This document shows, in pieces, positions 1,566-17,689 of a DNA stretch of 64,000 nt. How positions within the stretch are numbered: the first letter of the stretch is position 1; every line of letters begins with the position of its first letter. Source of the DNA: Aureimonas jatrophae (GTDB lineage Bacteria; Pseudomonadota; Alphaproteobacteria; Rhizobiales; Rhizobiaceae); contig NZ_FNIT01000001.1 of NCBI RefSeq assembly GCF_900104035.1, forward strand, positions 454,179-518,178. The letters are read 5' to 3'. The position numbers were made by a program, and so were the translations under genes. Below the pieces are notes generated by a model. That model was not told the DNA's origin. It saw only the letters and a program-made list of their open reading frames with translations, and searched no databases.

Positions 1566-2087
1566 TCAGAAGAACTCGATGGCGCCGACATCGGGTGCGG
1601 GCGCGGTTGGGGGCGGGGGGGCGACCGGCGCGTCGAGGTAAAGCTGGCGAGCGCGACCGCCGACCGGCCAGAACTCGACCCGCCGTCCCACCGTGCCGCC
1701 GAGGCTCGTCGCCATCAGGGGGATGCGCTCGGTTTGAAGGAAGTGCTGGGCGAACGCGCCGTTGCGCCGACCGGTCTCGCCCCGGCCGCCCAGCGTCGCT
1801 GCGCCGCCGAAGAGCTTGGCGCGCAGGCGATCGCGCCGCGCGCCGCGCTCCAGGAGGCCGTTGATCAGCACTTCCATCAGGTAGGCGCCGTAACGCTCGG
1901 CCGCGCCCGCCTGCCGCGTCCCCTCGCCGCCGGGCAGCAGGAAGTGGCACATGCCGCCCGCGCCCGCCGCCGGGTCGAAGAAGCAGGCGGCCACGCACGA
2001 GCCGAGGACGGTCGTCAGGCAGAGATCCGGGTCATCCGAGACCCGCGTCTCGCCCTCGGCCACATGGAGGCGAACGATGCCCGGCAC
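1566..2087 (-). CDS. cheD: Chemoreceptor glutamine deamidase CheD
   Basis: Deamidates specific glutamines on methyl-accepting chemotaxis proteins, creating methylation sites, and takes part in adaptation. The family triad is visible: Cys31 in LGSCVAACF, His48 in GGMCHFLLP and Thr25 or 26 just before the cysteine. Length (173) is slightly above the usual ~160 because of a Pro/Ala-rich tail that ends in DVGAIEFF. The start is a GTG at 2087, since no ATG lies upstream in frame before the end of cheY2. It follows cheY2 by 11 bases. The aromatic C-terminus is unusual and resembles the tail of the next gene product. Confidence 0.92.
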   Translation of the reverse strand: MPGIVRLHVAEGETRVSDDPDLCLTTVLGSCVAACFFDPAAGAGGMCHFLLPGGEGTRQAGAAERYGAYLMEVLINGLLERGARRDRLRAKLFGGAATLGGRGETGRRNGAFAQHFLQTERIPLMATSLGGTVGRRVEFWPVGGRARQLYLDAPVAPPPPTAPAPDVGAIEFF

Positions 2088-2098
2088 GGCGGCTCGCG

Positions 2099-2491
2099 TC
2101 AGGGCAGGTTGCCGGTCACCGCCTGGATCGCCTTTTGAAGGGCGGCCGGCTGAACGGGCTTGGGCAGGTAGTTGTTGACGCCGAGCTTGACGGCCTGCTG
2201 CAGGACGGTGCGGTCGCCCGAGCCGGTCAGGAGGATGAAGGGCGTGATGCGGGTCGCGGGATAGGTGCGGATCGCCTGGAGAAGCTGCAGCCCGTTGAGC
2301 TTGGGCATGTTGTAGTCCGAGATGACGATATGGGCGGGGCTCGTCATCATCATCTTGAGCGCCTCCTCGCCGTCCTTGGCGAAGGGGATGTTCGCGAACC
2401 CGATCTGCTGCAGCGCCTCGCGCATCAGGAGGCGGCTCGTGGTCTGGTCATCCACGATCAGGATCTTGATGGTCTGCTTGGTCAAAGACAC
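2099..2491 (-). CDS. cheY2: Chemotaxis response regulator CheY2
   Basis: Single-domain response regulator of 130 residues. It carries the acidic pair in LIVDDQ, the phosphorylated Asp59 in ISDYNMP, the Thr of LLTGSG and the conserved Lys of LPKP. In rhizobial che operons CheY2, coded after cheB, is the main motor-binding regulator, and CheY1 acts as a phosphate sink. The open frame extends to 2641, but the N-terminal 50 residues are a poor-quality shadow of cheB. GTG at 2491 (or TTG at 2485) starts the protein right before its first strand and overlaps the cheB stop by ten bases, which suggests translational coupling. Confidence 0.93.
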   Translation of the reverse strand: MSLTKQTIKILIVDDQTTSRLLMREALQQIGFANIPFAKDGEEALKMMMTSPAHIVISDYNMPKLNGLQLLQAIRTYPATRITPFILLTGSGDRTVLQQAVKLGVNNYLPKPVQPAALQKAIQAVTGNLP

Positions 2492-3567
2492 GATGCGGGC
2501 TCCCGGGGGCTGGCATGGGTGCCGAACACGGCCTCGGCCATGAGGTCCAGCGGCATTTGATGGTCGACCGCTCCGATCTGGAAGGCGGCCTTGGGCATTC
2601 CGTAGACGAGGGACGAGGCTTCGTCCTGGCCTATTATCCACCCGCCGGCCTTACGAATCTCCAAAGCGCCGCGCGCGCCGTCGCTGCCCATGCCGGTGAG
2701 GATCAGGCCGAGCGCGCGCGCACCGAAGGCGCGGGCGGCGGAATGGAAAAGGACGTCGACCGAGGGGCGATGGCCGGACACGGGGTCGGCCGCGACAAGC
2801 GAGCAGGCGGGCTTGGCGCCTCCTTGCGCCAGAAGATGGCGCGCTCCGCCCGGCGCGATCAGGATCTCGCCCGGTCGCAGCGGCATCCCGTCCTCGGCCT
2901 CCGCCACGCGCACTGCGCAACTCTTGGCCAGACGCTGCGCGAAGCCGCGGCTGAAGCCGGCGGGCAGGTGCTGGACGACAAGGGTCGGGGGCGCATCCTC
3001 CGGCCACCCGCGCAGGAGCGCGGTCAAGGCCTCGATGCCGCCCGTCGAGGCGCCAATCGTGATGAGGTCGGGCCGCGCGCGAAGCGGAGCCTTGCGCGTG
3101 GGCGCGGGGGCCGGGCGCGGCTTGCCGAAGCGCCGGTTGGCGAGCGCCACGAGGACGTCGCGCGCCCGGGCGGCGAGGCGCACCGTTTCGGCCAGGCGCG
3201 CAAAGGCTTCGTCGCCTGCATGCCGCGGCTTCACCACGCAGTCGAACGCGCCGATCTCCAGCGCCTGGATCGCGGCGGTCGTGCCGGGTCCGGTTTGGTT
3301 CGACACCATCACGACCGGCGTCGGGCGCAGGCGCATCACCTTTTCCAGGAACTCGATGCCCTGCATGCCGGGCATCTCGACGTCGAGGGTCACGACATCC
3401 GGGTCGAGGCGCTTCATCGCCTCGCGCGCGTCGGCGGCGTTTTCCGCCTCGCCCACGACCTCGATCCCGCCGCCCTCGCGCAGCGAGCGCGCGATCAGAA
3501 GGCGCATGGTGGGACTGTCGTCCACCACCAGAACGCGCACGGGGGAGGGGGCATCAGGGGTGCTCAC
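2482..3567 (-). CDS. cheB: Chemotaxis methylesterase/response regulator CheB
   Basis: Removes methyl groups from, and can deamidate, chemoreceptors when phosphorylated by CheA. The N-terminal receiver (about 10-130) carries phospho-acceptor Asp62 in TLDVEMPG. A Pro/Arg linker leads to the methylesterase domain with its triad: Ser in GASTGG, His in QHLPAGF and Asp in GMGSDGA. 361 residues, full length. GTG start at 3567 overlaps the cheR stop (GTGA). Second cheB in the window: the other belongs to the divergent operon. Confidence 0.96.
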   Translation of the reverse strand: MSTPDAPSPVRVLVVDDSPTMRLLIARSLREGGGIEVVGEAENAADAREAMKRLDPDVVTLDVEMPGMQGIEFLEKVMRLRPTPVVMVSNQTGPGTTAAIQALEIGAFDCVVKPRHAGDEAFARLAETVRLAARARDVLVALANRRFGKPRPAPAPTRKAPLRARPDLITIGASTGGIEALTALLRGWPEDAPPTLVVQHLPAGFSRGFAQRLAKSCAVRVAEAEDGMPLRPGEILIAPGGARHLLAQGGAKPACSLVAADPVSGHRPSVDVLFHSAARAFGARALGLILTGMGSDGARGALEIRKAGGWIIGQDEASSLVYGMPKAAFQIGAVDHQMPLDLMAEAVFGTHASPREPASCL

Positions 3568-4430
3568 GCGAGCCTCCGGTAGGTGGTGGTGGCGAGGTGG
3601 GCGAGCCGCTCGGCGGCGGCACCCGTGACGCGCTCGGAATGGCCGGCATAAAGCCAGCCGTCGGGATGGATCTGGTCGGCCATGCGCAGCCAGACGGCCT
3701 CGCGCACGCCTTGGTCGAAGTAGATCGCGACATTGCGGAAGAACACGACGTCGAACAGGCCGCGCATCGGCCAGGGAGCCAGAAGGTTGAGCTCGCGAAA
3801 CCGGATCAGAGCGCGCAGCTCCGGGCGCGCTTCGAGGAGGCCTTCGGGCGCGGGCTGGAAGAAGCGCGCGCGGTCGCAGGCCGCGACATCGGCGAACGCC
3901 GTCTCGTCGTAGCGGCCGTGCGAGGCGGCGCGCAGAACGTTGCGATCGATGTCGGTCGCCAGGATGCGGATATCGAGCGCGGACGCGTCGGGAACGGTGC
4001 GCAGGAGCGACATCGCCGCGGAATAGGTTTCCTGGCCCGTCGAGCAGCCTGCGCTCCAGATCCGCACCCGCCCGCCCGCCCGTGCGCGTTGCGCCAGCTC
4101 CGGTAGAACCTCCGTCTCGAAATGCCGGAAATGATGCGGCTCGCGGAAGAAGAACGTGTAGTTCGTGGTGAGCGCCTCGACCATGCGGCGCAACTCCTCG
4201 GCGCCGGCAGGCGACGACACGAGGTCGCCGTAGCGCTCGAAGCTGCCCGCACCCGTCTCCGCCACGCGTCGCACGAGGCGCGAGAACACCAGCGACAGCT
4301 TCGTGTCCGGCAGATGGATGCCCGCTTCGCGCCGCACGATTCCCGCGATCCGCCGAAAGGCGTCCACCGAAAGCGCGGGGTCCTCGGCGAGGACCCCCGT
4401 TCTGCGCGAAGGGGCCGCCGCCGCGTTCAT
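3564..4430 (-). CDS. cheR: Chemoreceptor methyltransferase CheR
   Basis: S-adenosylmethionine-dependent glutamate methyltransferase of chemoreceptors. The N-terminal helical domain is followed by the Rossmann domain with the SAM loop SAGCSTGQE and the motif [11 protein letters not shown], in which the usual Cys before RN is Phe. 288 residues, standard length. The beta-subdomain of this family binds the C-terminal xWxxF peptide of receptors, and the receptor of this operon ends in GWEEF. ATG start overlaps the cheW stop (ATGA). Confidence 0.95.
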
Positions 4431-4891
4431 GCCGTGCGCAGGCGCTCGGGCAGCATGCGCTCGGGCATGATGCGCGCGATCATGCGGTCCTCGATCGCCA
4501 CCACGCTCGACACGAAGGCCTTGGCGGAGTCCTGGGCGAGGTCCGGAGCGCTCTGGAGAAGGTCGGGGGTCACCGACAGGATGTCGGACACCGAGTCCAC
4601 CAGGAGACCGAAGACCTGGTCCTCGGCCGCCACCACCACGATCACGTGACGCGGCGTCGGCGGCTCGACCGGCAGGCCGAGGCGCGCGGCGAGATTGACC
4701 ACCGGCAGGACGGTGCCGCGCAGGTTGATCACGCCGAGGATGTAGTGCGGGGCGTGGGGCAGGGTGGTCGCGGGCGACCAGCCGCGGATCTCGCGCACCG
4801 CCCGGATATCGACGCAGAATTCCTGCGGGCCCACCCGGAAGGCGACCATCTCGGTGCCGCCGCTGACCGACTTGCGAAGCGTCTGGGACAT
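4427..4891 (-). CDS. cheW: Chemotaxis coupling protein CheW
   Basis: Adaptor that links receptors to CheA. 154 residues form a single CheW (SH3-like) domain with the typical strand [11 protein letters not shown] and the block [23 protein letters not shown]. The open frame begins at 4969, but the extra 26 residues are a shadow of the cheA end; ATG at 4891 begins the recognisable protein, four bases after the cheA stop. Confidence 0.95.
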
Positions 4892-4895
4892 GGGG

Positions 4896-7118
4896 TTACT
4901 CCGCCGCCACCTGGTCGAGGCCGAAGATGAAACTGTCGAGGGACTTGTCGCCGGCGAGCGCGTCGACATCGAGGATCAGGGCGACGCGGCCCTCGCCCGA
5001 GATCGTGGCCGCCGAGATGCCGGTGACCGGCCGGTAGTTCCGCTCTAGGCTCTTGATAACGACCTGCCGCTGGCCGCGGATCTCGTCGACCTGAAGCGCG
5101 ACGCGCCGGTTGTTGTCGCATTCCACGAGGATCGCGACGCCCTGCAGCGGGTCGGCGGGCGTTTCGCGGTAGCCGAGGCGCGTGCCGACGTCGATGAGCG
5201 GCACGATCGAGCCGCGCACGTTCACGGTGCGCCCCTGGCCGAGCGTCTGGAGGTCGGCGCCTTGCGGCCGGAACGTGAAGACGATGGCGCCGAGCGGCAC
5301 CACCAGCGTCTCGTTCTCGACGCGTACGATCATGCCCTCGAGCACCGCCAGCGTGAGGGGCAGGCTCATGGTGAAGGTCGAGCCGAGGCCGGGGCGCGAG
5401 GTAATCACCAGCCGCCCGCCGAGCGCCTCGATCGACTGCTTGACGACGTCCATGCCGACGCCCCGGCCCGAAATGGCCGAGACGGTGGAGGCCGTCGAGA
5501 AGCCCGGCAGCATGACGAGCTGATCGATCTCCTCGTCCGACAGCATCGCGTCGGCCGAGATCAGGCCCTTGTCGACCGCGATCTGGCGCACCTTCGGCCG
5601 GTTGATGCCGGCGCCGTCGTCGGCGATCTCGATGATGATGCGACCCGAGCGATGGGCGGCCGAGAGCGTGACGGTCCCTTCCGCCGGCTTGCCCTTGGCG
5701 AGGCGGTCCTCGGGCTTTTCCAGCCCGTGGTCGATCGCGTTGCGGATCATGTGGGTGAGGGGATCCGACAGGCGCTCCACCACGGTCTTATCGACCTCGG
5801 TGTTCTCGCCCTGCGTGACGAAGTTCACCCGCTTGCCCGTGGCCGACGCCGTTTCGCGCACGAGGCGCGGCATACGCTGGAACACCGACTTCACGGGCTG
5901 GGCGCGCACTGCCATGACCGAGTCCTGCAGCGTGCGCGTCAGGCGGTCGAGCTCCTCGATCGAGCCGGCGATCTCGGAGCCGGTGGGAAGCTCGGCCTCC
6001 TCGATGCGCTGGGCGAGCATGGTCTGGGTGGTGACGAGCTCGCCTACGAGGTCGATCAGCTTGTCGACGCGCGTGAGCTCGACGCGGATCACCACGCCCG
6101 GCGCCTCGCCCCCGCCCTTGGGCTCGCCGCTCTCGTCCTTGGCGGGTTTGGCGGCGGCAGCGGGCTTGGGCTCGGCGGCGACCACGGGCTCGGGCCGCGT
6201 TTCAGCCGTTGCCGGCGCGTCCGGCTCGGACGCGATCTCGCTCTGGAGCCGCGCCAGGAGATCGGCAACCGCGAGACCCCCGACGTCCGGCTCGGCGGCA
6301 TCGGCGCGTGGCGTGATCTCCAGCTCGCAGTCCCATTCCGCGAACTCGAAGACCTCGCGCACGGCGCTTTCGGCGATCCCCTCGCCGTCGAGCGAGATCG
6401 CGAAGGAGAGGTAGCTGTCCTCGGGGTCGATCGCGTCGAGCGTGGGCACGCGGCTCGTGTCGCAGGCAACGCTCATCTCGCCCAGCGCACCGAGCTGGCG
6501 CAGGATCACCGCCGCCTCGTTGGCCTTGGCGTAGAGTTCGCGGCGGGGCGTGAACGCGATCTGGAACAGCGGGCCGTCGGTGGGCAGGGCGGCGGGTTCG
6601 CCGAACGCCGGCATCGCGCCGTCGCCGCCCAGCATCGCGCCCCAGTCCACCGCGACCGGCGTGAACTCGAAGTCGGCGAGACTGGCCCCGCCGTCCTCGT
6701 CGTCGCCTTCCGCCGCCCCGTGCGCCTCGCGCGGGCCGCCGATGAGCGTTTCCAGCTCGTTGATCAACTCGGCCGAGCGCGCCTCGTCGGCGGCCTCTCC
6801 GTCGCGGCCGGCGGCCACGAGGTCGCGCAGGTGATCGGCCGAGCGCAGCATCACGGCCATCACCGCGTCGCCGGCCTCGAGCCGGTGCGAGCGCACCTCG
6901 TCCAGCACCGTCTCGAAGACGTGGGCGAAGCGCACGAGGTGATGAAGGTCGAAGGCGCCGGCGCCGCCCTTGATGGAGTGCACCGCGCGGAAGACGCGGT
7001 TCACCGTGTCGTCGTCGGTCTCGCCGCCGCTCATGGCGTTGAGGCCGTCCTCCAGCTCCTGCAGCTGGTCGTCGCATTCCTGGAAGAAGACGACCCGGAT
7101 CTCGTCGAGAGCGCTCAT
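4896..7118 (-). CDS. cheA: Chemotaxis sensor histidine kinase CheA
   Basis: Central kinase of the left pathway: autophosphorylates on histidine and passes phosphate to CheY1, CheY2 and CheB. 740 residues. The P1 Hpt domain has phospho-acceptor His47 in [11 protein letters not shown]2-like response-regulator-binding region lies near 165-265, then an Ala/Pro/Glu-rich linker, the P3 dimerisation helices, P4 ATPase (N-box [11 protein letters not shown]1 IADDGAGI, G2 GRGVGMDVV) and a C-terminal CheW-like P5. ATG at 7118 begins directly with P1; the upstream open frame to 7640 is an artefact of overlapping genes. It follows cheY1 by eight bases. Confidence 0.96.
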
Positions 7119-7126
7119 GACGAACC

Positions 7127-7492
7127 TCAGGCCGCGACGCGGTTGATCGCCGAGACGAGGCGCTCGGGATCGAAGGGCTTCACGATCCAGCCGGTGGCGC
7201 CGGCGCGGCGCGCGCGGTCCTTCTTGGCCGGATCGGACTCGGTGGTGAGCACGATGATCGGGATGGCGCGGCGCGCCCCGTCGGCGCGCACCGCCTCGAT
7301 GAACTCGAGCCCGTTCATGCGCGGCATGTTGATGTCGGTGATGATGACGTCGGGCTCGGAGGCGCCCAGCACCTCGAGGCCGTGCACGCCATCCTCGGCC
7401 TGGATCACCGTGAAGCCCGCCTTGTCGAGCGCCGAGCGGAGCAGTTCGCGCATGGTGCGCGAGTCGTCGATGGTGAGAATCGTCTTCGTCAT
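7127..7492 (-). CDS. cheY1: Chemotaxis response regulator CheY1
   Basis: Single-domain receiver of 121 residues with the acidic pair at 9-10, phospho-acceptor Asp53 (ITDINMP), the TTES threonine and the KPF lysine all present. In rhizobial che operons this position, just before cheA, holds CheY1, which drains phosphate back from CheA and so shortens the signal. ATG start overlaps the stop of the STAS gene (ATGA), so the two are probably translationally coupled, in line with the proposed CheS-CheA-CheY1 partnership. Confidence 0.93.
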   Translation of the reverse strand: MTKTILTIDDSRTMRELLRSALDKAGFTVIQAEDGVHGLEVLGASEPDVIITDINMPRMNGLEFIEAVRADGARRAIPIIVLTTESDPAKKDRARRAGATGWIVKPFDPERLVSAINRVAA

Positions 7493-7950
7493 CACGCGGC
7501 GTCCACGAGGAAGGGGTCGGCGATCCCGAACAGGGCGAGGTCGCGGCGGAAGGCGTCGGAGGCTCCCTGGAGCCGGATCGGCACGCGGTCGGCGCTGAAC
7601 GTCCGGCCTGCCGACAGGAGAAGCTGCAGGCACTGGCCACCCAGGCGCTTCACCTCGCCCGCCTCGACCCGAAGCGGCCTGCCGCGGTGGGCAAGAAGCG
7701 CGGCATGGAGGGGGGCGGTCGCGGTGATGTCGAGGACCGGCGCGAGGACCAGGACCGTCTCGTTCTCGCCGGGCGCTTCGTCATCCGCCGCCTCGGGCAG
7801 CGTGGCGAGGAGGGGAGGGGTCTCGACCACGTGCTCCTCTTGCGCCTCCTCCTCGTTCGAGGCGGCCGCCTCGAACGAGGCCATCATCGCGAGGATCTCG
7901 GGCGGAAGCGTTAGCTCGGGCAGATCGTCGGTGCGGGTCGTGTCGGACAT
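7492..7950 (-). CDS. cheS: STAS-domain chemotaxis protein, CheS-like
   Basis: 152-residue protein with an acidic, Glu-rich N-terminus (about 15-60) and a C-terminal STAS (MlaB/anti-anti-sigma-like) domain, seen in VLVLAPVLDITATAPLHAA and the later DAFRRDLALFGI. It sits between the receptor gene and cheY1, the position of cheS (cheX, orf2) in rhizobial che operons. CheS of that family binds CheA and speeds CheY1 dephosphorylation. ATG at 7950 overlaps the receptor stop; the long upstream extension in the same frame is a shadow of the receptor gene. Identity as CheS is by position and domain. Confidence 0.8.
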   Translation of the reverse strand: MSDTTRTDDLPELTLPPEILAMMASFEAAASNEEEAQEEHVVETPPLLATLPEAADDEAPGENETVLVLAPVLDITATAPLHAALLAHRGRPLRVEAGEVKRLGGQCLQLLLSAGRTFSADRVPIRLQGASDAFRRDLALFGIADPFLVDAA

Positions 7951-9764
7951 CAGAACTCCTCCCATCCGAGATCGTCGGCGGCGGCGGCGGGGGCGGGGGC
8001 CGCCATCGCCGCGGCCGAGCCGCCGGCGGCCGCGACGACAACCGGCACCGGCACGGCCGGCGCCCGGGGCGCGGGCGCGGCGGGCAGGCGCGCGACCGGC
8101 GGCGCGGCATGCATGGCGGCCGAGACCTGGCGCAGGTTCGCCACCGAGCGATCGGTGTCGCTCACCTGGAAGCTGGCCAGAAGCCGGCAAAGCTCCTCGG
8201 TCTCGGTGCGCAGCGAGAGCGTGGCGGCCGTGGTTTCCTCCACCATCGCCGCGTTCTGCTGCGTGACGCGGTCCATCTTGTTGACGGCCTCGTTGACCTC
8301 GGCGATGCCGGTGGACTGCTCGCGCGCCGAGCCGGCGATCTCCTGCACCAGGGCGTCGACCTGCGTGACCTGAGCGGCGATGCGCGTCAGCACCTCGCCC
8401 GAGCGGCTGACGAGATCCACGCCGTCGCCCACATGGGCCGACGAGGCGCCGATCAGCGACTTGATCTCCTTGGCGGCCTCGGACGAGCGCTGGGCGAGCG
8501 CGCGCACCTCGAGCGCCACCACGGCGAAGCCGCGGCCGGCGTCGCCCGCGCGCGCCGCCTCGACGCCTGCGTTGAGGGCGAGAAGGTTGGTCTGGAAGGC
8601 GATCTCGTCGATCACGCCGATGATGCGGGCGATCTGCTGCGACGACTTCTGGATGGCGTTCATGGCGGCCACCGCCTCGCGCATCACCTCGCCGGAGCGC
8701 TCGGTGTCGAGGCGGGCGGCGGCGACCGAGGAGGCGACCGAGGCGGCGTTCTCGGCGGAATGCTTGACGGTCGCGGTGATCTCGTCGAGCGCGGTCGCGG
8801 TCTTGTCGAGCGAGGCGGCCTGCTGCTCGGTGCGGCGCGACAGGTCGTCGGCGGCCTGGCCGATCTCGTTGGTGCCGTTGGTGATCGAGGCGACCGAGGC
8901 GGTGACGTGGGCGACCGTGTCGTGGAGGTGGGCGGCGGCCGCGTTGAAGGCTGCCGGAATGGCGGCGAAGCGCTCGGGCAGGGCGGTCTCGATGCGGCAG
9001 GTCAGGTCGCCGGCCGCCAGGCGCCGAAGGGCGCCCTCCAGCGTTTCGGCCACGAGCGCTGCGTCGTCCGCACGCGCCCGGGCGTCGCTTTCGGCCTCGC
9101 GCGAGGCCTCGGCCCGGGCGTCGCCCTGGCGGATGGCGTCGGCCTCCACGGCCGCGATGCGGGTCTTGAGCTGGCTCAGCGCTTCGCCGGTCTGCGTCAG
9201 GATGGCGACCTCGCCCTGGGTGCCCGCGACGCCGGCGGCGTCGGCCAGCTGGCGCGCGGCGCGCCGAACTGGGGCGATCGCGGCGCGCTGAACCAGGAAG
9301 GCCAGAAGCATCAGGCCGGCCAGCGGGACGAGGATCGCGGCCAGGAGCATGGTTCCAGCCGACGACAGGCTTTCGGCACGCTGCTCGCGCACCGTGCTCA
9401 GGGCGGTCTGGGTGTCGCCCGCGATCGACTGGAGAAGCGGGGCCGCCGCCTCGAGCCGCTCCGCGTCCACGGACGACGGGTTCGACAGGATGGTCTCGAG
9501 CCGGTTGACGCGCGCCAGGTCGGTCGTGTCGAGGCTACCGAGGCGCAGCGCCTCGACATCGCTCCCGACCGGACCGCCTTCCCACAGGCGCAGCGAGAGG
9601 CTGCGCGCCGTATCCAGCCGCGTGGCGAGCGCGGCCTCGCGCTCGGCCGCCTCGGCCGCCCGGCCCGCCTGGTTGTAGGCCAGAAGACCCGTCAGGATGC
9701 TGGCGCCGCCGGCCAGCGCTACCGCCAGCAGAAGCTGGCGCGACATGGTCATGGACTTCAGCAT
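7950..9764 (-). CDS. Methyl-accepting chemotaxis protein
   Basis: Membrane chemoreceptor of 604 residues that heads the left operon. It has a first transmembrane helix near 10-30, a short periplasmic helical domain (about 31-135), a second helix near 136-158, a HAMP-like segment, and a long cytoplasmic coiled coil with the receptor tip IDEIAFQTNLLALNAG and the FAVVALEVRALA block. After an Ala/Pro-rich linker it ends in GWEEF, which fits the xWxxF tether that binds CheR. In Rhizobium and Sinorhizobium this position holds IcpA, a soluble receptor; here the receptor clearly has two membrane helices. ATG at 9764 begins just before the first helix; the open frame upstream lacks protein character. 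Confidence 0.93.
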   Translation of the reverse strand: MLKSMTMSRQLLLAVALAGGASILTGLLAYNQAGRAAEAAEREAALATRLDTARSLSLRLWEGGPVGSDVEALRLGSLDTTDLARVNRLETILSNPSSVDAERLEAAAPLLQSIAGDTQTALSTVREQRAESLSSAGTMLLAAILVPLAGLMLLAFLVQRAAIAPVRRAARQLADAAGVAGTQGEVAILTQTGEALSQLKTRIAAVEADAIRQGDARAEASREAESDARARADDAALVAETLEGALRRLAAGDLTCRIETALPERFAAIPAAFNAAAAHLHDTVAHVTASVASITNGTNEIGQAADDLSRRTEQQAASLDKTATALDEITATVKHSAENAASVASSVAAARLDTERSGEVMREAVAAMNAIQKSSQQIARIIGVIDEIAFQTNLLALNAGVEAARAGDAGRGFAVVALEVRALAQRSSEAAKEIKSLIGASSAHVGDGVDLVSRSGEVLTRIAAQVTQVDALVQEIAGSAREQSTGIAEVNEAVNKMDRVTQQNAAMVEETTAATLSLRTETEELCRLLASFQVSDTDRSVANLRQVSAAMHAAPPVARLPAAPAPRAPAVPVPVVVAAAGGSAAAMAAPAPAAAADDLGWEEF

Positions 9765-10166: not shown

Positions 10167-10433
10167 ATGTCCTCTCCCAGCGTGCTGACGCTCCATGGTG
10201 CCCACGACCTGTCGACGTCGGTGGCCACCCATGCCGCGATGCTGGAGGCCTCGGCTGCCGGCTCGCTGCGTCTCGACCTGTCGGGCGTCGAGAGTGCCGA
10301 TGTCAGCTTCGTTCAGCTGGTGCTGGCCCTGCGGGCGGGCCTCGAGGCGCGCGGCGACACGCTGGAATGCCTCACCTCGCCGGCGGTCGTGGAAGCCTTC
10401 TCGCGCTGCGGCGCCGATCTTCCCGCGAACTGA
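10167..10433 (+). CDS. STAS-domain protein heading second chemotaxis operon
   Basis: 88-residue stand-alone STAS domain, with the typical strand LRLDLSGVESADVSFVQLVLAL and a C-terminal helix pair. Stand-alone STAS proteins act as anti-anti-sigma-like switches or docking modules. It is the first gene of the right operon, 40 bases before cheY, and mirrors the STAS gene of the left operon; a role in modulating this CheA or CheY is likely. The usual phosphorylated Ser/Thr of SpoIIAA-type domains falls in the region VESADVS and could be Ser, but this is not certain. Confidence 0.85.
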   Translation: MSSPSVLTLHGAHDLSTSVATHAAMLEASAAGSLRLDLSGVESADVSFVQLVLALRAGLEARGDTLECLTSPAVVEAFSRCGADLPAN

Positions 10434-10473: not shown

Positions 10474-10842
10474 GTGACGAAGTCCGTTCTTTGCGTCGAT
10501 GACTCCGCCAGCGTGCGGCAGATGGTGTCGTTCACCCTGGAGAGTGCCGGCTACGCGCCCGACACCGCCGTGGACGGCGCCGACGCCATCACCAAGCTGG
10601 AGCAGAACAAGTACCAGCTCATCATCACCGACCTGAACATGCCCAACCTCGACGGCATCGGCATGATCCGGAAGGTCCGGCAGATGCCGCAGCATGCGGG
10701 CCTGCCGATCGTGATGCTGACCACCGAGTCCGACGAGGCCAAGAAGATGGAAGGCAAGGCGGCCGGCGCGACCGGCTGGATCGTCAAGCCCTTCGACCAG
10801 ACCAAGCTGGTGGCGGTCGTCAACAAGCTGATCGGAGCCTGA
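10474..10842 (+). CDS. cheY: CheY-type response regulator
   Basis: 122-residue receiver with the acidic pair CVDDSA, phospho-acceptor Asp53 (ITDLNMP), the TTES threonine and the VKPF lysine. GTG start at 10474; no in-frame ATG is nearby. It lies five bases before cheA in the right operon and is expected to be phosphorylated by that CheA. It is closer in pattern to CheY1 of the left operon (TTES, ATGWIVKPFD) than to CheY2. Confidence 0.93.
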   Translation: MTKSVLCVDDSASVRQMVSFTLESAGYAPDTAVDGADAITKLEQNKYQLIITDLNMPNLDGIGMIRKVRQMPQHAGLPIVMLTTESDEAKKMEGKAAGATGWIVKPFDQTKLVAVVNKLIGA

Positions 10843-10847
10843 TACCG

Positions 10848-12845
10848 ATGGGCGGCGGCGACATGCTCGAGGTCTTCCTCAACGAGGCGCGGGACCTTCT
10901 GGAACAGCTCGAGGCGGCGCTGCTCGACCTCGAGACGCGGCCGACCGACCGCGAGCTGATCAACACGACCTTCCGCGCTCTTCACACGCTGAAGGGCTCG
11001 GGCGGCATGTTCGGCCCGCCCGCCATGGCCGCCTTCGCGCACGAGCTGGAGAACGCCTTCGAGAAGGTGCGCCAGGACAAGGTCGCGGTGACCCCGCGCC
11101 TCGTCTCCCTCCTTCTCCAGTCGGCGGACCAGATCCGCAAGCTCCTGTTCGAGCCGGGCGACCATTCCGAGGCGAGCCATCGCCTCGCCGCCGCCCTGAA
11201 CGAGGAGGTCGGAACAGGCGCGCCCGCCGCCGCCGTGCCGGCGGCGGCCCCCGTCGCGGTCGCGGCCGCCGCTCCCGCCTCCGACATGAAGCGCTGGCGC
11301 ATCCGCCTGCGCCTGGAGGCGAACGCCCTTCAGTTCGGCACCAACCCGGTCTCGCTCTTCGACGAGCTGCGCGACCTCGGGACGCTCACGGTCACCGCCG
11401 ACGCCTCGCGCCTGCCTGCGCTGGCCGAGCTCAACCCGACCGAGCTCTACCTCGGCTGGGAGATGGTGCTGGAGACGGCCGCCGCGCGTTCGCAGATCGA
11501 GGACGTCTTTATCTTCGTGGACGGTCCCGACGCCGTCCTGATCGAGGCGCTGGACGCCGCCGCTCCCGTCGTGGCTCCCGCCGAGATGGCGCCGCCGGCT
11601 GCTGCAGCGGCGCCTGCGCCCGCCGCCGCGCCCAAGGCCGCCGCCGCCCCGAAGGCCGAGGAAGCGCGCGGCGAAGCGCGCACCGAGGCCCATGTGCGGG
11701 TGTCGGCGAGCCGCCTCGATCTTCTGCTCGACCAGGTCGGCGAGCTCGTGATCGCCCAGGCTCGCCTCACGGCGCTCGCCCGCAATCGCCGCGACCCCGT
11801 CCTGTCCACGGTCTCGGAAGAGATCGAGCGCCTGTCGGCGGACCTGCGCGACTCGGCCATGGGCATGCGCATGGTGCCGATCGAGACGCTGTTCGGCCGC
11901 TACCGGCGCGTCGTGCGCGACATCTCCTCGGATCTCGGCAAGGAGATCGATCTGGTCTTCACGGGCGAGGAGACCGAGCTCGACAAGACCGTGCTCGACC
12001 GCCTCGGCGATCCGATGGTCCACATCATCCGCAACTCGCTCGACCATGGCATCGAGTCGGCCGAGCGGCGGCTCGCCGCCGGCAAGCCGGCGCGCGGCCA
12101 CCTGCGCCTCGGCGCCCGCCAGGCCGGCACCGAGGTCGTGATCACGATCGAGGACGACGGCGCCGGGCTCAACCGCGCCCGCATCCTGGAAAAGGCGCAG
12201 GCCGCCGGCGTCGTGCTGGAAGGCGTCACCCCGCCGGACCGCGAGATCGACGAGCTGATCTTCCATCCCGGCCTGTCCACGGCCGCCACCGTCTCGAACC
12301 TGTCGGGACGGGGCGTCGGCATGGACGTCGTGCGCCGCACGATCAACGAACTGCACGGCTCGATCGAGATCGACACGCGGCCGGGCGAGGGAACGCGCTT
12401 CCTTCTGCGCCTGCCCCTTACGCTGGCCATCGTCGACGGGCTGCAGGTCTCGGTCGGCGAGACGCAGTGCATCCTGCCGCTCACCAGCGTCGAGGAGTGC
12501 GTCGAGCTCTCGGCGGTGGAGTCGCGCGCTTCCAACGGGCGCAACTTCGTGGACATCCGCGGCACGCTGGTGCCCCTCCTGTGGATGCACGAGGTGTTCA
12601 ACGAGGGGACACGCGGCGGCGTGGTGGTCGTGGTCGAGAGCGACACCGGCAAGCTCGGCGTCGTGGTGAACCAGGTGGTCGGCCAGCACCAGACCGTGAT
12701 CAAGCCGGTTTCGCCGCTGCATGCGGGGACGCCGGGCCTGGGCGGCGCGACGATCCTGGGCGACGGCACGGTGGCCCTGATCCTCGACGTCAACCCGCTC
12801 GCCCGTCATGCCGTGCGCCCGCGCGTCGACACCGTCGCGGCCTGA
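10848..12845 (+). CDS. cheA: Chemotaxis sensor histidine kinase CheA (second copy)
   Basis: 665-residue histidine kinase of the right operon. P1 has phospho-acceptor His46 in RALHTLKGS; an Ala/Pro-rich linker follows, then a P2-like region (about 145-240), a second Ala/Pro linker, P3, the P4 ATPase ([27 protein letters not shown]) and a C-terminal CheW-like P5. The domain order equals that of the left CheA, but linkers and length differ (665 against 740), so this is a separate paralogous system and not a recent duplication. Confidence 0.96.
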   Translation: MGGGDMLEVFLNEARDLLEQLEAALLDLETRPTDRELINTTFRALHTLKGSGGMFGPPAMAAFAHELENAFEKVRQDKVAVTPRLVSLLLQSADQIRKLLFEPGDHSEASHRLAAALNEEVGTGAPAAAVPAAAPVAVAAAAPASDMKRWRIRLRLEANALQFGTNPVSLFDELRDLGTLTVTADASRLPALAELNPTELYLGWEMVLETAAARSQIEDVFIFVDGPDAVLIEALDAAAPVVAPAEMAPPAAAAAPAPAAAPKAAAAPKAEEARGEARTEAHVRVSASRLDLLLDQVGELVIAQARLTALARNRRDPVLSTVSEEIERLSADLRDSAMGMRMVPIETLFGRYRRVVRDISSDLGKEIDLVFTGEETELDKTVLDRLGDPMVHIIRNSLDHGIESAERRLAAGKPARGHLRLGARQAGTEVVITIEDDGAGLNRARILEKAQAAGVVLEGVTPPDREIDELIFHPGLSTAATVSNLSGRGVGMDVVRRTINELHGSIEIDTRPGEGTRFLLRLPLTLAIVDGLQVSVGETQCILPLTSVEECVELSAVESRASNGRNFVDIRGTLVPLLWMHEVFNEGTRGGVVVVVESDTGKLGVVVNQVVGQHQTVIKPVSPLHAGTPGLGGATILGDGTVALILDVNPLARHAVRPRVDTVAA

Positions 12846-12859
12846 AGAGGAAGAAACCG

Positions 12860-13348
12860 ATGTCCGCAGCCGCCGCCCTTCCCGCAGCGACCCCCGCGCA
12901 GCCGCAGTCCGTTGCGCGCGACTTCCTGACCATCGCGCTCGGCGAGGACCTCTTCGCGATCCCCGTGTCGCTGGTCCACGAGGTGCTCGACCCCGCGCCC
13001 GTGACGCGCGTTCCCAACGCGCCGGTCTTCGCGCCGGGCCTCGTCAACGTGCGCGGCAACGTCCTGCCGATGCTCGACCTTCGCGCCCGCTTCGGCCTGG
13101 AGCCCGCGCCCGATACCGCCTCGACGCGCCTGATCGTGTCGGAGGTGGCGATCGAGGGCGGCGACCCGTTCGAGGTCGCCATCAAGACCGACGCCGTGTT
13201 CGCCGTGGTTCCGGTGCGCGACGAGGAGATCGCGAGCGTGCCCGAATACGGCTCGCGCTGGCCGAGCCGGTTCCTTGCGGGCGTCGTGCGCGACGAGGGA
13301 CGCTTCGTCCTGCTGCTCGACGTCCCCCGCCTCGTCGAAACCCACTGA
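12860..13348 (+). CDS. cheW: Chemotaxis coupling protein CheW (second system, copy 1)
   Basis: 162 residues, one CheW domain with the block APGLVNVRGNVLPMLDLRARF. ATG at 12860, preceded by AGAGGAAG as ribosome binding site; the frame is open further upstream only because it runs antisense-like through the cheA end. It lies 14 bases after cheA. It is the first of two cheW genes in a row in this operon. Confidence 0.93.
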   Translation: MSAAAALPAATPAQPQSVARDFLTIALGEDLFAIPVSLVHEVLDPAPVTRVPNAPVFAPGLVNVRGNVLPMLDLRARFGLEPAPDTASTRLIVSEVAIEGGDPFEVAIKTDAVFAVVPVRDEEIASVPEYGSRWPSRFLAGVVRDEGRFVLLLDVPRLVETH

Positions 13349-13386: not shown

Positions 13387-13905
13387 ATGAGCCAGCCCTT
13401 CCGGTCCGCCTTCGGCGAAAGCGAGACTGAGAGCGAGAGCGCCGAGATGCTCACCTTCCAGCTGGGCTCGGGCGCCTTCGCGGTGAACGTGCGCCAGGTC
13501 CGCGAGGTGCTCGACCACAAGCCGATCCAGCCGCTCGCCAACGCGCCGGCCAGCCTTCTGGGCATGATCGACGTGCGCGGCGCCGGCGTGCCGGTGGTGG
13601 ATCTCAAGCGCAAGCTGCGCATGCCGGACAGCGAGATGCGGCCCGTCACCGGCGACACGCGCATCGTGGTTCTCGAGTTCGAGGCCGCGGGCGAGACGCA
13701 GACCATCGCCGTGATCGCCGACGCCGTGCACGAGGTCGTGGACCTTGCCGACCAGGTGGTCGAGATGCCGCCGCACGTGGGCGAGGCCTGGGACACGACC
13801 TTCATGCAGGGACTGGGCCGGCGCAACGAGAGCTTCCTGACGCTGCTGCGCGCCGACCACCTCTTCTCCGCGGGCGAGGGCGTTGTCCTCGGCCGGGCCG
13901 CGTGA
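13387..13905 (+). CDS. cheW: Chemotaxis coupling protein CheW (second system, copy 2)
   Basis: 172 residues with a single CheW domain (FQLGSGAFAVNVRQVREV, then LLGMIDVRGAGVPVVDLKRKL). An acidic, Ser/Glu-rich N-terminal tail of about 20 residues precedes the domain. Two adjacent CheW paralogues in one operon suggest that they couple different receptors or have different places in the array. Confidence 0.94.
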   Translation: MSQPFRSAFGESETESESAEMLTFQLGSGAFAVNVRQVREVLDHKPIQPLANAPASLLGMIDVRGAGVPVVDLKRKLRMPDSEMRPVTGDTRIVVLEFEAAGETQTIAVIADAVHEVVDLADQVVEMPPHVGEAWDTTFMQGLGRRNESFLTLLRADHLFSAGEGVVLGRAA

Positions 13906-13912
13906 GGACGCC

Positions 13913-14803
13913 ATGGCCGCGCTGCGCAAGCCCAACCCCGAGGGCACCGAGGTCATTCCGGCCTGGACGCGCGTCCAGCTAGCCGACGCCGCCTTCGCCA
14001 CGCTCGTGCGCCTGGTGCGCGAGAGCTGCGGCGTCGCCATGTCGGACTTCAAGAAGACCATGCTGGAGACGCGGCTGCGCCGCCGTCTCCAGGCGACGGG
14101 CCTCGAAAGCTTCGAGGCCTACGTCGCGCTCCTCCAGAAGCCCGAAGGCTGGCGCGAGGAGGGGCAGAACTTCGTGGACGCCGTGGTCACCAACGAGACC
14201 TCGTTCTTTCGCGAACGCGCCCACTTCGACCACTTCACCCCGGCCGAGGTCGAGCGCCTGCTCAAGAACGGCGACGGGCGGGGCCTTCACGTCTGGAGCG
14301 CGGCCGCCTCGTCGGGGCAGGAGGCCTACACGATGGCCATGGTGCTCGACAGCCTGTCGGAGGGCGCCACGCGCTTCGACTGGTCGGTGCTGGCCACCGA
14401 CATCTCGGTGAAGGTCCTGCGCATGGCGCGCGAGGCGGTCTACCGCTCGGAAGACGTGGCGCCGGTCCCGCCCGCGCTGCTCGACCGCTACGTCCTGCGC
14501 TCGCGCGACGAGGCGAGCGGCACGGTGCGCATCGCGCCGGAGCTGCGCCAGCGCGTCCACTTCGGCCAGCTCAACCTGATGCATGCCGAGTACAAGCCGA
14601 AGCGGACGATGGACGTCATCTTCTGCCGCAACGTCCTGATCTACTTCGAGCCCGCCGTCCAGGAACAGGTCGTCTCCAAGCTGGCGCGCCACGTGCGCCC
14701 CGGCGGTCTCCTGATCCTCGGCCATTCCGACTCGCTGCGCACCAAGACCCTGCCGCTGCGCCTCGTCGGCAACAACATCTACGAACGCCTGGGAGACAGA
14801 TGA
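13913..14803 (+). CDS. cheR: Chemoreceptor methyltransferase CheR (second copy)
   Basis: 296-residue SAM-dependent methyltransferase with an N-terminal helical domain and a Rossmann domain. The SAM loop reads [12 protein letters not shown] (family SAACSTGEEPYS), and the [11 protein letters not shown] motif is intact. ATG at 13913 has GAGGACGCC ahead of it; the frame is open up to 13883 but would overlap cheW more. Its end overlaps the following cheB (ATGATGA). Confidence 0.94.
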
Positions 14804-15912
14804 TGAGCGCGATCCGCGTCCTGATCGTGGACGACTCGGCCAGTGTGCGGCAGGTGCTCACCGAGATCGTCTCGGCCGAGCCCGGCATGGAGGTGATGGG
14901 CACCGCGTCCAACCCCTACTTCGCCGCCGAACGGCTGCGCGAGGAGGTGCCCGACGTCATCATCTGCGACATCGAGATGCCGCGCATGGACGGCATCACC
15001 TTCGTCCAGAAGCTGATGAGCCAGCGCCCGATCCCGGTGGTGATCTGCTCCTCGCTCGCCGAGGCCGGCTCCGCCATGGCGCTTCAGGCGCTGGAAGCGG
15101 GCGCGGTGGAGATCATCGCCAAGCCCAAGATGGGCACGCCGCAGTTCCTTCTGGAGTCGCGCACCCGCATCACGGACGCCGTGCGTGCGGCAGCCCAGGC
15201 CAAGCCGCGCCAGCGCCGCGCGCCTGCCAGCACCGGTGTCCAGCCCAAGCTCACCGCCGATGCCGTCCTGCCGCCCGCCACCGGCCGCCCGATCGACCGC
15301 ACCACCGACAAGGTGGTGGTGGTCGGCGCCTCCACCGGCGGAACCGAGGCGCTGCGCCACCTTCTGGAGCCGCTGCCCGTCGACTGCCCCGGCATCGCCG
15401 TTGTGCAGCACATGCCGGCCGGCTTCACCTCCGCGTTCGCCAAGCGGCTCGACTCGCTCTGCCGCATCGAGGTGCGCGAGGCCGTCACCGGCGACCGTCT
15501 GATGCCGGGTCTGGCCCTGATCGCGCCGGGCAACCACCACCTCCTCCTGCAGCGCTCGGGCGCGCAGTACCACGTCGAGGTGCGGGAGGGGCCGCTCGTG
15601 TCGCGCCACCGCCCCTCGGTGGACGTCCTGTTCCGCTCCGCCGCCCGCTCGGCCGGCGCCAACGCGCTCGGCATCATCATGACGGGCATGGGCGACGACG
15701 GCGCCAAGGGCATGCTGGAACTGCGCCAGACCGGCGCGCGCACGGTCGGCCAGGACGAGGCGTCCTGCATCGTCTACGGCATGCCCAAGGAGGCCATGAA
15801 GGCGGGAGCGGTGGAGGAGGAGATGCCGCTCGGCAAGCTCTCCGCCGAGATCGTCCGCTTCAGCCACGACCATTCCCCGCGCGTCCAGGCGCGCGCCTCG
15901 CAGAGCCGGTAA
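14800..15912 (+). CDS. cheB: Chemotaxis methylesterase/response regulator CheB (second copy)
   Basis: 370 residues: receiver domain (phospho-acceptor Asp57 in ICDIEMPR), linker, and methylesterase domain with Ser in GASTGG, His in QHMPAGF and Asp in GMGDDGA. Two adjacent ATG codons (14800 and 14803) could start it. With CheR of the same operon it forms a complete adaptation module, although this operon codes no transmembrane receptor. Confidence 0.95.
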
Positions 15913-15919
15913 CCGCGCC

Positions 15920-17689
15920 ATGACCACCGACACGCTTCTGTCCCCCGAGACCCTCCAGCCGCTGTCGCGCGCGCTGGAGCGCATCCACCAGTGGAACGTC
16001 TCTTCGGAGACGGTCTATCTCGGCGCGGGCGAGGATCTCCAAACGCTTCACCGGCGCATCGGCACGGTGCGCGACGGCATCCGCCGCACCACCGAGACCG
16101 TGTCCTCGGCCGACGGCGACCGGGTGGAAGCACTGCTCGCGGGTGCCGCCGAGGCAGCCTCCGACCTCGAGGGCGCCTCGCGCGAGCGCACGCGCCTCCT
16201 GCGCACGCTCTCCGACGGCGTGACGCTCAGCGCCGGCGGCTCGGCGGCCGTCGCGCTCGTGTTCCGCCTTCTGGACTATGTCGTGCTCGTCGCGCGCACC
16301 CATGTCGAGGGCATGAGCGAGGGGCGCGAGGTGCTCGTGCCCTTCACCGAGCACGTCCATGAACTCGTAAGCTCCGGTCAGGGCGTCGCCAGCAGCCTCG
16401 ACGAGCGCGTGCGCGTCCTGCGCGGCCACATCGAGGAAAGCCGCGCCATCGACAACCGCGTCGGCGCGCGGGCCGCGGTCGGCGAGCCGAGCCTCGCCTT
16501 CCAGTTCAAGGGACTGATCCGACGCCTGGCCATGGAGCGCGACACCCTGGCCGATACGCGTCAGGAAGCGCACCGCTCCTTCTCCACGATCCGCGACGCG
16601 GTGGGCGGCCTCGTGATGGGCCTCCAGTTCCATGACATCGCCCGCCAGCGCCTCGAGCACACGCTCGGCAACCTCGAGCGCTTCCTTCTGCTTGCCGCGG
16701 AGGGCAAGCTGGCGCACGACGCGCCGGCGCTCGCGCCCAAGGCGCGCAACCTTGCGGTGCGTCGCATCGCCGAGCTCGAGATCGCTCAGCTCCAGAGCCT
16801 CGCTTCGCTCTACGAGACCCGCATGGGCGAGCTGCACGGCAACCTCACCGTGATCGAGGACGAGCTTCTCGCCTCGGACCGCCTTCTCGCCTCGCTGTTC
16901 CGCGAGGGCACGAGCGGCGAAGGACGGTCCGCCATGGCCGTTCTGGAAAGCGAGACGAGCCGCCTGCGCCAGCGCTTCCAGCGCGGCGAGAGCGACCGCC
17001 GCCAGCTCGACGAGAGCCTGCGCGAATGCGTCGAGGCCGCCGACCCGCTGATCGCCATGACCGACGAGCTCGGCGCACTGGAGCACACGCTGCGCCTCGC
17101 CGGCTTCAACGCCGCGGTGCGCGCCGCCCATGTCGACTCGGGCGACGAGACGATCGGCTACATCGCCCGCGAGATCCGCGAGCAGGCCACCGCCGCCAAG
17201 GTCCAGGCCGACACGGTGCGCGAGGGCATCGAGGCCTCGGTCAGCGCCACGCGCGAGCTGGAGGCGAGCGTCCTGCCGGCGATTCGTCGCGCCGAGGATG
17301 CGATCAGCCGCCAGTTCGAGGAGGCGACCGCGCTTCTCGCCCGTATCGAGAGCGACTGCCAGAACGAGATGCGCGCGGCCTCCAGCCAGGCCGAGGGCCT
17401 GAGCGGCCGCGTACGCACCATCTCGACGCTGATGACGCCCCATGTCGAGGGCTGCGCCCTGATGCGCGAGGCGGTGGCGCTTCTGGAAGCCATGCTGCGC
17501 GGCCTGCCCGACGAGACCGCGAGCCTCGAGGACGCGCGCGACCTCCACGGGCTGCTCGCCGGTCAGTACACGATGGCCGAGGAGCGCCAGATCTTTGAGG
17601 CCTCGTTCCGCGGCCAGCTGGGTGCGGCACCTGCCGCGCCGGCAGCGGCGGCTGCGGCGGCCGACGACATCGACGACCTCCTGTTCTAG
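15920..17689 (+). CDS. Soluble CheZ/MCP-like chemotaxis protein of unknown type
   Basis: 589 residues, almost wholly alpha-helical coiled coil, no membrane segment or signal peptide. Three features stand out. LQFHDIARQRLEH near 235-247 has the D-x-x-x-Q pattern (Asp239, Gln243) in the same setting as the CheZ phosphatase motif FQDLTGQ. Residues ~388-430 (LAGFNAAVRAAH, then YIAREIREQA) resemble the signalling tip of methyl-accepting proteins. The last residues, ADDIDDLLF, follow an Ala-rich linker and look like the CheY-binding peptides of FliM and of the CheZ C-terminus. It ends the right operon, eight bases after cheB. I infer a cytosolic protein that binds CheA/CheW arrays and CheY and may dephosphorylate CheY. 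A degenerate cytosolic receptor is the alternative. Confidence 0.75.
   Translation: MTTDTLLSPETLQPLSRALERIHQWNVSSETVYLGAGEDLQTLHRRIGTVRDGIRRTTETVSSADGDRVEALLAGAAEAASDLEGASRERTRLLRTLSDGVTLSAGGSAAVALVFRLLDYVVLVARTHVEGMSEGREVLVPFTEHVHELVSSGQGVASSLDERVRVLRGHIEESRAIDNRVGARAAVGEPSLAFQFKGLIRRLAMERDTLADTRQEAHRSFSTIRDAVGGLVMGLQFHDIARQRLEHTLGNLERFLLLAAEGKLAHDAPALAPKARNLAVRRIAELEIAQLQSLASLYETRMGELHGNLTVIEDELLASDRLLASLFREGTSGEGRSAMAVLESETSRLRQRFQRGESDRRQLDESLRECVEAADPLIAMTDELGALEHTLRLAGFNAAVRAAHVDSGDETIGYIAREIREQATAAKVQADTVREGIEASVSATRELEASVLPAIRRAEDAISRQFEEATALLARIESDCQNEMRAASSQAEGLSGRVRTISTLMTPHVEGCALMREAVALLEAMLRGLPDETASLEDARDLHGLLAGQYTMAEERQIFEASFRGQLGAAPAAPAAAAAAADDIDDLLF

Follow-up and report, generated by a model that had tools for sequence, protein, structure and literature searches.

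In the textbook chemotaxis pathway the receptor, the kinase and the phosphatase are separate proteins. The roles proposed below for an Asp and a Gln residue are founded on the catalytic mechanism of the phosphatase CheZ. To our knowledge, the soluble chemoreceptor of Thermotoga (3g67/3g6b) has neither a D-x-x-x-Q motif nor a CheY-binding tail, unlike the protein described here, which we call X.

Three further described systems can be compared with X. The McpA-like receptors adjoin F7 clusters and, as far as the available part of Ortega et al. (2020; PMC7184735) goes, are not required for the F7 array, are devoid of the CheR pentapeptide and cannot be assigned to a heptad class. The same part describes their C-terminus as strikingly conserved, with an 'important yet unclear biological role', and gives two gene orders, the McpA-like gene following cheB in stage 1 and being shifted to the front in stage 2; cheZ is included in the F6 systems only, and not in F7, in both stages. 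One such receptor, VCA1088, is placed among the 24H receptors in the available part of PMC7534058, where an experimental report on VCA1088 is stated to be unavailable. X differs from the McpA-like receptors in being double-copy, in its divergent tip, in having no evident membrane helix and in residing mostly in operons of the STAS/cheY-cheA-cheW-cheW-cheR-cheB type. Two receptor signalling regions within one cytosolic polypeptide are shared by X and DosM (F9), a likeness drawn from description; a phosphatase motif in DosM is not mentioned in the available part of PMC7534058. The third system is CheT of Sinorhizobium meliloti, an alphaproteobacterial protein which, like X, is not CheZ and carries a DXXXQ motif, and which speeds up the dephosphorylation of one CheY out of two. 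No receptor part of CheT is described in the available part of the review (PMC12654446), on which this comparison, by description only, is based. No description of a receptor with a CheZ-type site was found in the open-licence literature, to the extent that its text was available.

X closes a che operon

The window, that is, the whole stretch of 64,000 nucleotides analysed here, contains two che systems back to back. The forward operon has the order STAS-cheY-cheA-cheW-cheW-cheR-cheB-X. Its first gene codes for a STAS-domain protein (10167..10433, +; PF13466, E 7.5e-13) and is followed by cheY, the proposed substrate of X (10474..10842, +; PF00072), cheA (10848..12845, +), two cheW genes (12860..13348, + and 13387..13905, +; both PF01584), cheR (13883..14803, +; the ORF as listed, the real start of which is possibly further in) and cheB (14800..15912, +). 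The gene for X (15920..17689, +) is the last one, as a sequence-only reading of this DNA had it, and starts 8 bases past the end of cheB. The 589-residue product combines an MCP-like hairpin, duplicated in tandem, with a CheZ-type D-x-x-x-Q motif and an acidic C-terminal tail. The divergent operon (1566-9764, −) comprises genes for an ordinary MCP with the C-terminus GWEEF (7950..9764, −; PF00015, E 3.5e-49) and a STAS protein, followed by cheY, cheA, cheW, cheR, cheB, a second cheY and cheD; its cheA, cheW, cheR and cheB were named by sequence alone.

X had no Pfam match at E≤1, and its five NCBIfam matches (E 0.039 to 0.98) were each far under the respective cut-off. A membrane helix was not evident by reading of the sequence. 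The closest named genome found was that of Aureimonas sp. AU4, with 97% identity over X. Searches with the Pfam models revealed neither CheZ (PF04344) nor CheX in the genome carrying X, CheC and CheT being outside the scope of that search.

We propose that X is probably a receptor-shaped, CheZ-like phosphatase of CheY-P that is itself built as a chemoreceptor rod. By analogy with CheZ, the tail of X would capture the CheY-P of its own operon, Asp239 and Gln243 would insert into the active site of CheY, and the phosphoryl group would be removed by a water molecule positioned by Gln243. More speculatively, the receptor-like hairpins might keep the enzyme in or close to the array, the state of which could then gate X. 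With a phosphatase of such shape, the ending of the signal would be tied directly to the array.

Conservation of the D-x-x-x-Q motif

The stretch LQFHDIARQRLEH (residues 235-247; 16622..16660, +) includes D239 and Q243, for which a setting like that of the CheZ catalytic motif had been claimed. Both residues are invariant (30/30) in a 30-row alignment of relatives 15-97% identical to X, and they share the CheZ register, which agrees with that claim. Altogether, the alignment contains 11 invariant columns, including the start Met. Seven of these fall within LQxxDxxRQRxEH (Q236, D239, R242, Q243, R244, E246 and H247), and the chance that both named columns would be found among 11 of 589 is about 3e-4. 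RQRxEH is conserved beyond the need of catalysis alone, a point against the phosphatase reading.

The pattern LQ..D...Q was also present in 36/36 relatives read from fetched gene neighbourhoods (L143-L173 and L003-L007, the protein of the window itself being excluded; L172 is a shortened ORF of 385 aa), albeit this frequency is inflated because the profiles used to gather the relatives contain the motif. D and Q are likewise kept in all five named plasmid relatives, from Methylosinus, Agrobacterium leguminum, Azospirillum sp. B510, Novosphingobium and Shinella; in the Azospirillum sp. B510 protein R242 and E246 are changed, with D and Q retained.

Single-sequence searches produced matches in at least 9/61 genomes of the family and at least 12/297 of the order, own genome counted in both, and most of these matches were near full length with 19-29% identity. 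A profile search of the order matched nearly the whole first half of the protein or more in at least 28/297 genomes (own included; E at most 2.8e-27). When plasmids were searched with X itself as a query no match was obtained; a distant member of the X family retrieved proteins annotated as 'hypothetical protein', 'chemotaxis protein' or 'type VII secretion target'. The last label is attached to matches on Shinella plasmids (residues 225-592 and 225-569 of the distant member), where a coiled coil has likely been misannotated.

Tandem duplication of a receptor hairpin

Two copies of a hairpin unit can be recognised in X. Copy 1 extends over about residues 25-261 (15992..16702, +), with a degenerate tip at residues of about 115-150 (16262..16369, +) that aligns to canonical tips. 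Copy 2, delineated with hhalign, covers about residues 340-528 (16937..17503, +); its receptor tip is situated at residues of about 384-430 (17069..17209, +) and contains the conserved N397, whereas its D-x-x-x-Q slot is degenerate. An alignment of copy 1 to nine single-copy relatives (probability 98.4, E 1e-14) brought the tips together and placed LQFHDIARQ on MQFQDLAKQ. Copy 2 aligned to single-copy relatives with a probability of 97.3 (E 2.4e-11), the two copies aligned to each other (93.7, E 1.9e-7), and full-length X aligned in register with a 12-row single-copy alignment over 248 columns running through copy 1 (98.6, E 7e-16). Coiled-coil composition may inflate such scores; nevertheless, tip and motif are jointly in register, and the most plausible account of X is that one hairpin unit was duplicated in tandem. 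The AlphaFold model of X (pLDDT 85.4, pTM 0.66) consists almost entirely of helix, interrupted at 131-135 and 405-409, the expected sites of the tips of copies 1 and 2; the helix bearing D-x-x-x-Q spans residues 192-261.

A resemblance of residues ~388-430 to a receptor signalling tip had been pointed out before, and the comparison to known receptors lends it weight. With the X family profile, solved MCPs were matched over 341-543 (2ch7 scoring best, at E 8.5e-18), ordinary MCPs were also detected, over roughly positions 285-540 of the profile, and the N397 column holds N in 29/30 rows, with a gap in the last. Thus, of the two profile searches that had been suggested, the one with MCP families revealed homology at the level of the X family, although X itself had no PF00015 match; the search with the curated CheZ model (PF04344) gave no match for X and 0/30 members at E≤0.01. 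PF00015 was matched at E≤0.01 by 18/30 members; when two other members were scanned singly, one scored above the cut-off of 34.6 bits (35.4) and one below (22.0).

The canonical MCP tip LNAxIEAARAG, with its contact residues, was not encountered in the X family, where the E column is occupied by R or K in 27/30 rows and the R column by H, R, Q or K. Membership of X in the array is uncertain because the tip of copy 2 departs in this way from the canonical one. As the sequence-only reading had it, a single polypeptide brings together receptor-like, CheZ-like and CheY-binding-like parts; the receptor-type hairpin, the CheZ-type D-x-x-x-Q helix and the tail resembling CheY-binding peptides are each conserved at the sequence level, but the receptor tip (copy 2) and the catalytic motif (copy 1) turn out to belong to separate copies of the duplicated unit.

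The duplication bears on an alternative in which the tail and the helix site bind CheY-P with no catalysis, X being a sink, a localiser or an array scaffold. Receptor-tip features have been kept in both copies, and arrays are scaffolded by receptors with two signalling domains, DosM for example, according to the available part of PMC7534058. However, the residues conserved in copy 1 are precisely D and Q, spaced as in CheZ, while the corresponding slot of copy 2 has decayed, and we regard a non-catalytic X as unlikely.

Single-copy relatives and gene neighbourhoods

The phosphatase reading may also apply to single-copy relatives of X, which resemble McpA-like receptors. These proteins (L174-L182, L183 of Aeromonas, L184 of Vibrio, L189 of Methylobacterium and others) possess a canonical MCP tip, and 7/7 of those scanned pass PF00015 with 68 to 89 bits. 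In the 12-row alignment, which brings together alpha- and gammaproteobacterial members, invariance beyond the tip region is confined to the motif residues Q, F, D and Q and to the last F, and in every row the Q preceding F lies 115 or 116 residues from the tip.

A search of the phylum yielded 31 single-copy ORFs, read from best-match loci only; two of them (L191 and L194) derive from genomes already represented among the alphaproteobacterial nine, and the overall tally of 213/328 genomes takes in ordinary MCPs and should not be read as the size of the single-copy family. Q-F-x-D-x-x-x-Q occurs in 30/31 of these ORFs; in the exception, the second ORF of L219, D is replaced by E. D is located at +118 or +119 from the tip in 23/23 ORFs with a recognised tip pattern, the remaining eight, seven of which carry the motif, being left out of this count. 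Among 68 control MCPs, D-x-x-x-Q was seen at +117 to +120 in a single protein, plainly a family member itself, and elsewhere within +105 to +135 in two others. At L219 two single-copy genes are neighbours; one of them (ORF 4-991) has ExxxQ for DxxxQ, is without the usual tail and is possibly an inactive partner.

Genes of che systems were present in 9/9 alphaproteobacterial and 16/18 further single-copy loci. In the latter 18 the single-copy gene lies directly before cheY six times and directly after cheB seven times, and a separate CheZ ORF was not found there with the CheZ HMM. The two placements agree with the two McpA-like gene orders given in the available part of PMC7184735. The same source, as far as available, ascribes to the McpA-like F7 receptors PA0180/CttP and VCA1088 the features seen in single-copy relatives: an MCP gene by cheB or at the cluster front, no pentapeptide and a conserved C-terminus. 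From this description we infer that the single-copy relatives may be McpA-like receptors.

Taken one step further, single-copy McpA-like proteins and cytosolic tandem X proteins could together form a widespread proteobacterial class of receptor-phosphatases, with a CheZ-type site whose distance from the tip is fixed and a tail that captures CheY; we put this class forward tentatively, as a possibility that falls somewhat short of probable. If it exists, the chemoreceptor array has a signal-terminating enzyme of its own, which could be gated by the state of array or ligand, and che clusters without cheZ are supplied with the missing phosphatase.

As for X proper, che genes were found in 32/36 loci (the other four had none in the stretch fetched), and X is within 600 bases of cheB in 22/36. 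At L030 / L169 the X gene is located on the strand opposite to a fliF-like ORF, recognised by sequence, and closes a che cluster that includes cheD. The suggestion that X stands in for a receptor fails because 29/36 loci of relatives code for an ordinary MCP; in the window, too, an MCP is encoded divergently upstream.

The neighbourhoods are also relevant to the choice of substrate. The site of X might serve a different receiver, either the receiver domain of CheB or the CheYs of the neighbouring operon, instead of the product of cheY at 10474. Even though cheB adjoins X and two further single-domain receivers are encoded in the divergent operon, the single-copy gene immediately precedes cheY in a third of the 18 loci (6/18), and we find such a substrate distinctly unlikely.

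Most alphaproteobacteria had been said to lack CheZ. This is not what we observe in the order: PF04344 was matched in 177/297 genomes, 172 of them above the curated cut-off, and often several times per genome, the own genome having none; some of the 177 are possibly false because the CheZ model matches a Bacillus subtilis control below the cut-off. CheZ is present in 13/28 genomes with X vs 164/269 others (p=0.16; with at least 28 X genomes, the X counts are lower bounds). In the absence of significant avoidance across genomes, X is therefore not simply a replacement of CheZ.

The C-terminal region

X ends in AADDIDDLLF (17657..17686, +), a putative CheY-binding peptide comparable to the tails of CheZ proteins, for example SQDDIDALFD. 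Of the 36 neighbourhood relatives, 28 end in F, 5 in L and 3 in another residue. The lack of conservation that the sequence-only reading had named as grounds for refutation was not observed, D and Q being kept in 36/36. CheZ tails of the order mostly run one residue beyond F and none of 30 ends in F, which sets them apart from the tails of X. A second conserved element, YTMAEERQIF (residues 550-559; 17567..17596, +; consensus YTMxxERx[IV]H), has T, M, E and R in 29/30 rows and a gap in the last. The block is echoed in single-copy relatives by SYATDEQRNIH (Aeromonas) and TDEQRRLHHG (others).

The tail of X had also been likened to the N-terminal peptide of FliM. The two are not comparable in this genome because its FliM (L221:1462-2397, the only FliM match) shows no evident N-terminal peptide of the EIDALL type. 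The C-terminus of this FliM, EEFIDDILAD, resembles DDIDDLLF of X, and CheY docking in this genome may have shifted to the C-terminal end of FliM.

The tail could alternatively be a tether for CheR or CheB like the MCP pentapeptide, the helix motif then being merely structural. The terminal F and the closeness of cheR and cheB would suit such a function, and terminal F is found in 13/48 control MCPs as well. However, the pentapeptide x-[HFYW]-x-x-[HFYW] occurs in 0/36 X tails and 0/40 single-copy tails (0/9 and 0/31) vs 16/48 control MCPs, and McpA, being without the pentapeptide, interacts with none of four CheR proteins according to the available part of Ortega et al. 2020 (PMC7184735). The pentapeptide tether is unsupported by the pattern and very improbable.

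Comparison with CheZ

CheZ proteins of the order carry ACNFQDLTGQRITKV, and their tails are mostly like SQDDIDALFD. The CheZ profile aligned with copy 1 of X in the exact D-x-x-x-Q register over 44 columns (score 32.6, P 0.0012), with an hhalign probability of only 19, and with the single-copy family in the same exact register (score 37.1), with a probability of only 32. Heptad-block shuffles reached the observed score in 0/200 cases for X copy 1 (best 30.0) and in 0/200 for the single-copy family (best 33.1). Masking of the 13 motif columns lowered the score of copy 1 to 21.4. With the full-length X profile, the best CheZ match was at another, non-catalytic stretch.

D239 and Q243 are predicted from helix (heptad) periodicity to point off the hydrophobic face, as they do in CheZ. 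The angles of D and Q from that face are 113/165 degrees in X, 120/171 in the single-copy family and 104/156 in CheZ when a period of 3.5 is used, and 111/151, 150/170 and 113/153 degrees, respectively, with a period of 3.6.

HMM searches were less discriminating. At a threshold of 0.01 the CheZ HMM matched 8/36 X proteins in the forward direction, three of the eight on the motif, and 1/36 reversed; at E≤10 the numbers were 34 forward vs 27 reversed. For the 31 single-copy ORFs they were 23 forward vs 24 reversed at E≤10 and one each at 0.01, and 5/48 control MCPs were matched. Foldseek and VIA searches with the X model returned mostly generic helical bundles; CheZ was absent among the best 50 matches listed of each, which is not counter-evidence.

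The least probable of the alternatives, that the CheZ match is a chance resemblance in a generic coiled-coil protein, could draw on the low hhalign probabilities, the weak HMM scores with reversed sequences similar in number and the unrelated helical bundles filling the structural matches listed, yet it has very little left in its favour once the failure of shuffles in each of two families, the shared CheZ register and helix face and the near-total conservation of D and Q are considered.

Chance does not readily explain why X and CheZ are alike at the active site. X shares with CheZ (PF04344) the D-[IL]-T-x-Q-R-[IL] helix, the predicted helix face and the acidic DDIDxLF-like tail, and differs from it in being built on an MCP-type hairpin. 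Across 45 loci (36 with X and nine single-copy ones), the sole protein matched by the CheZ HMM was an X (L157, E 1e-5).
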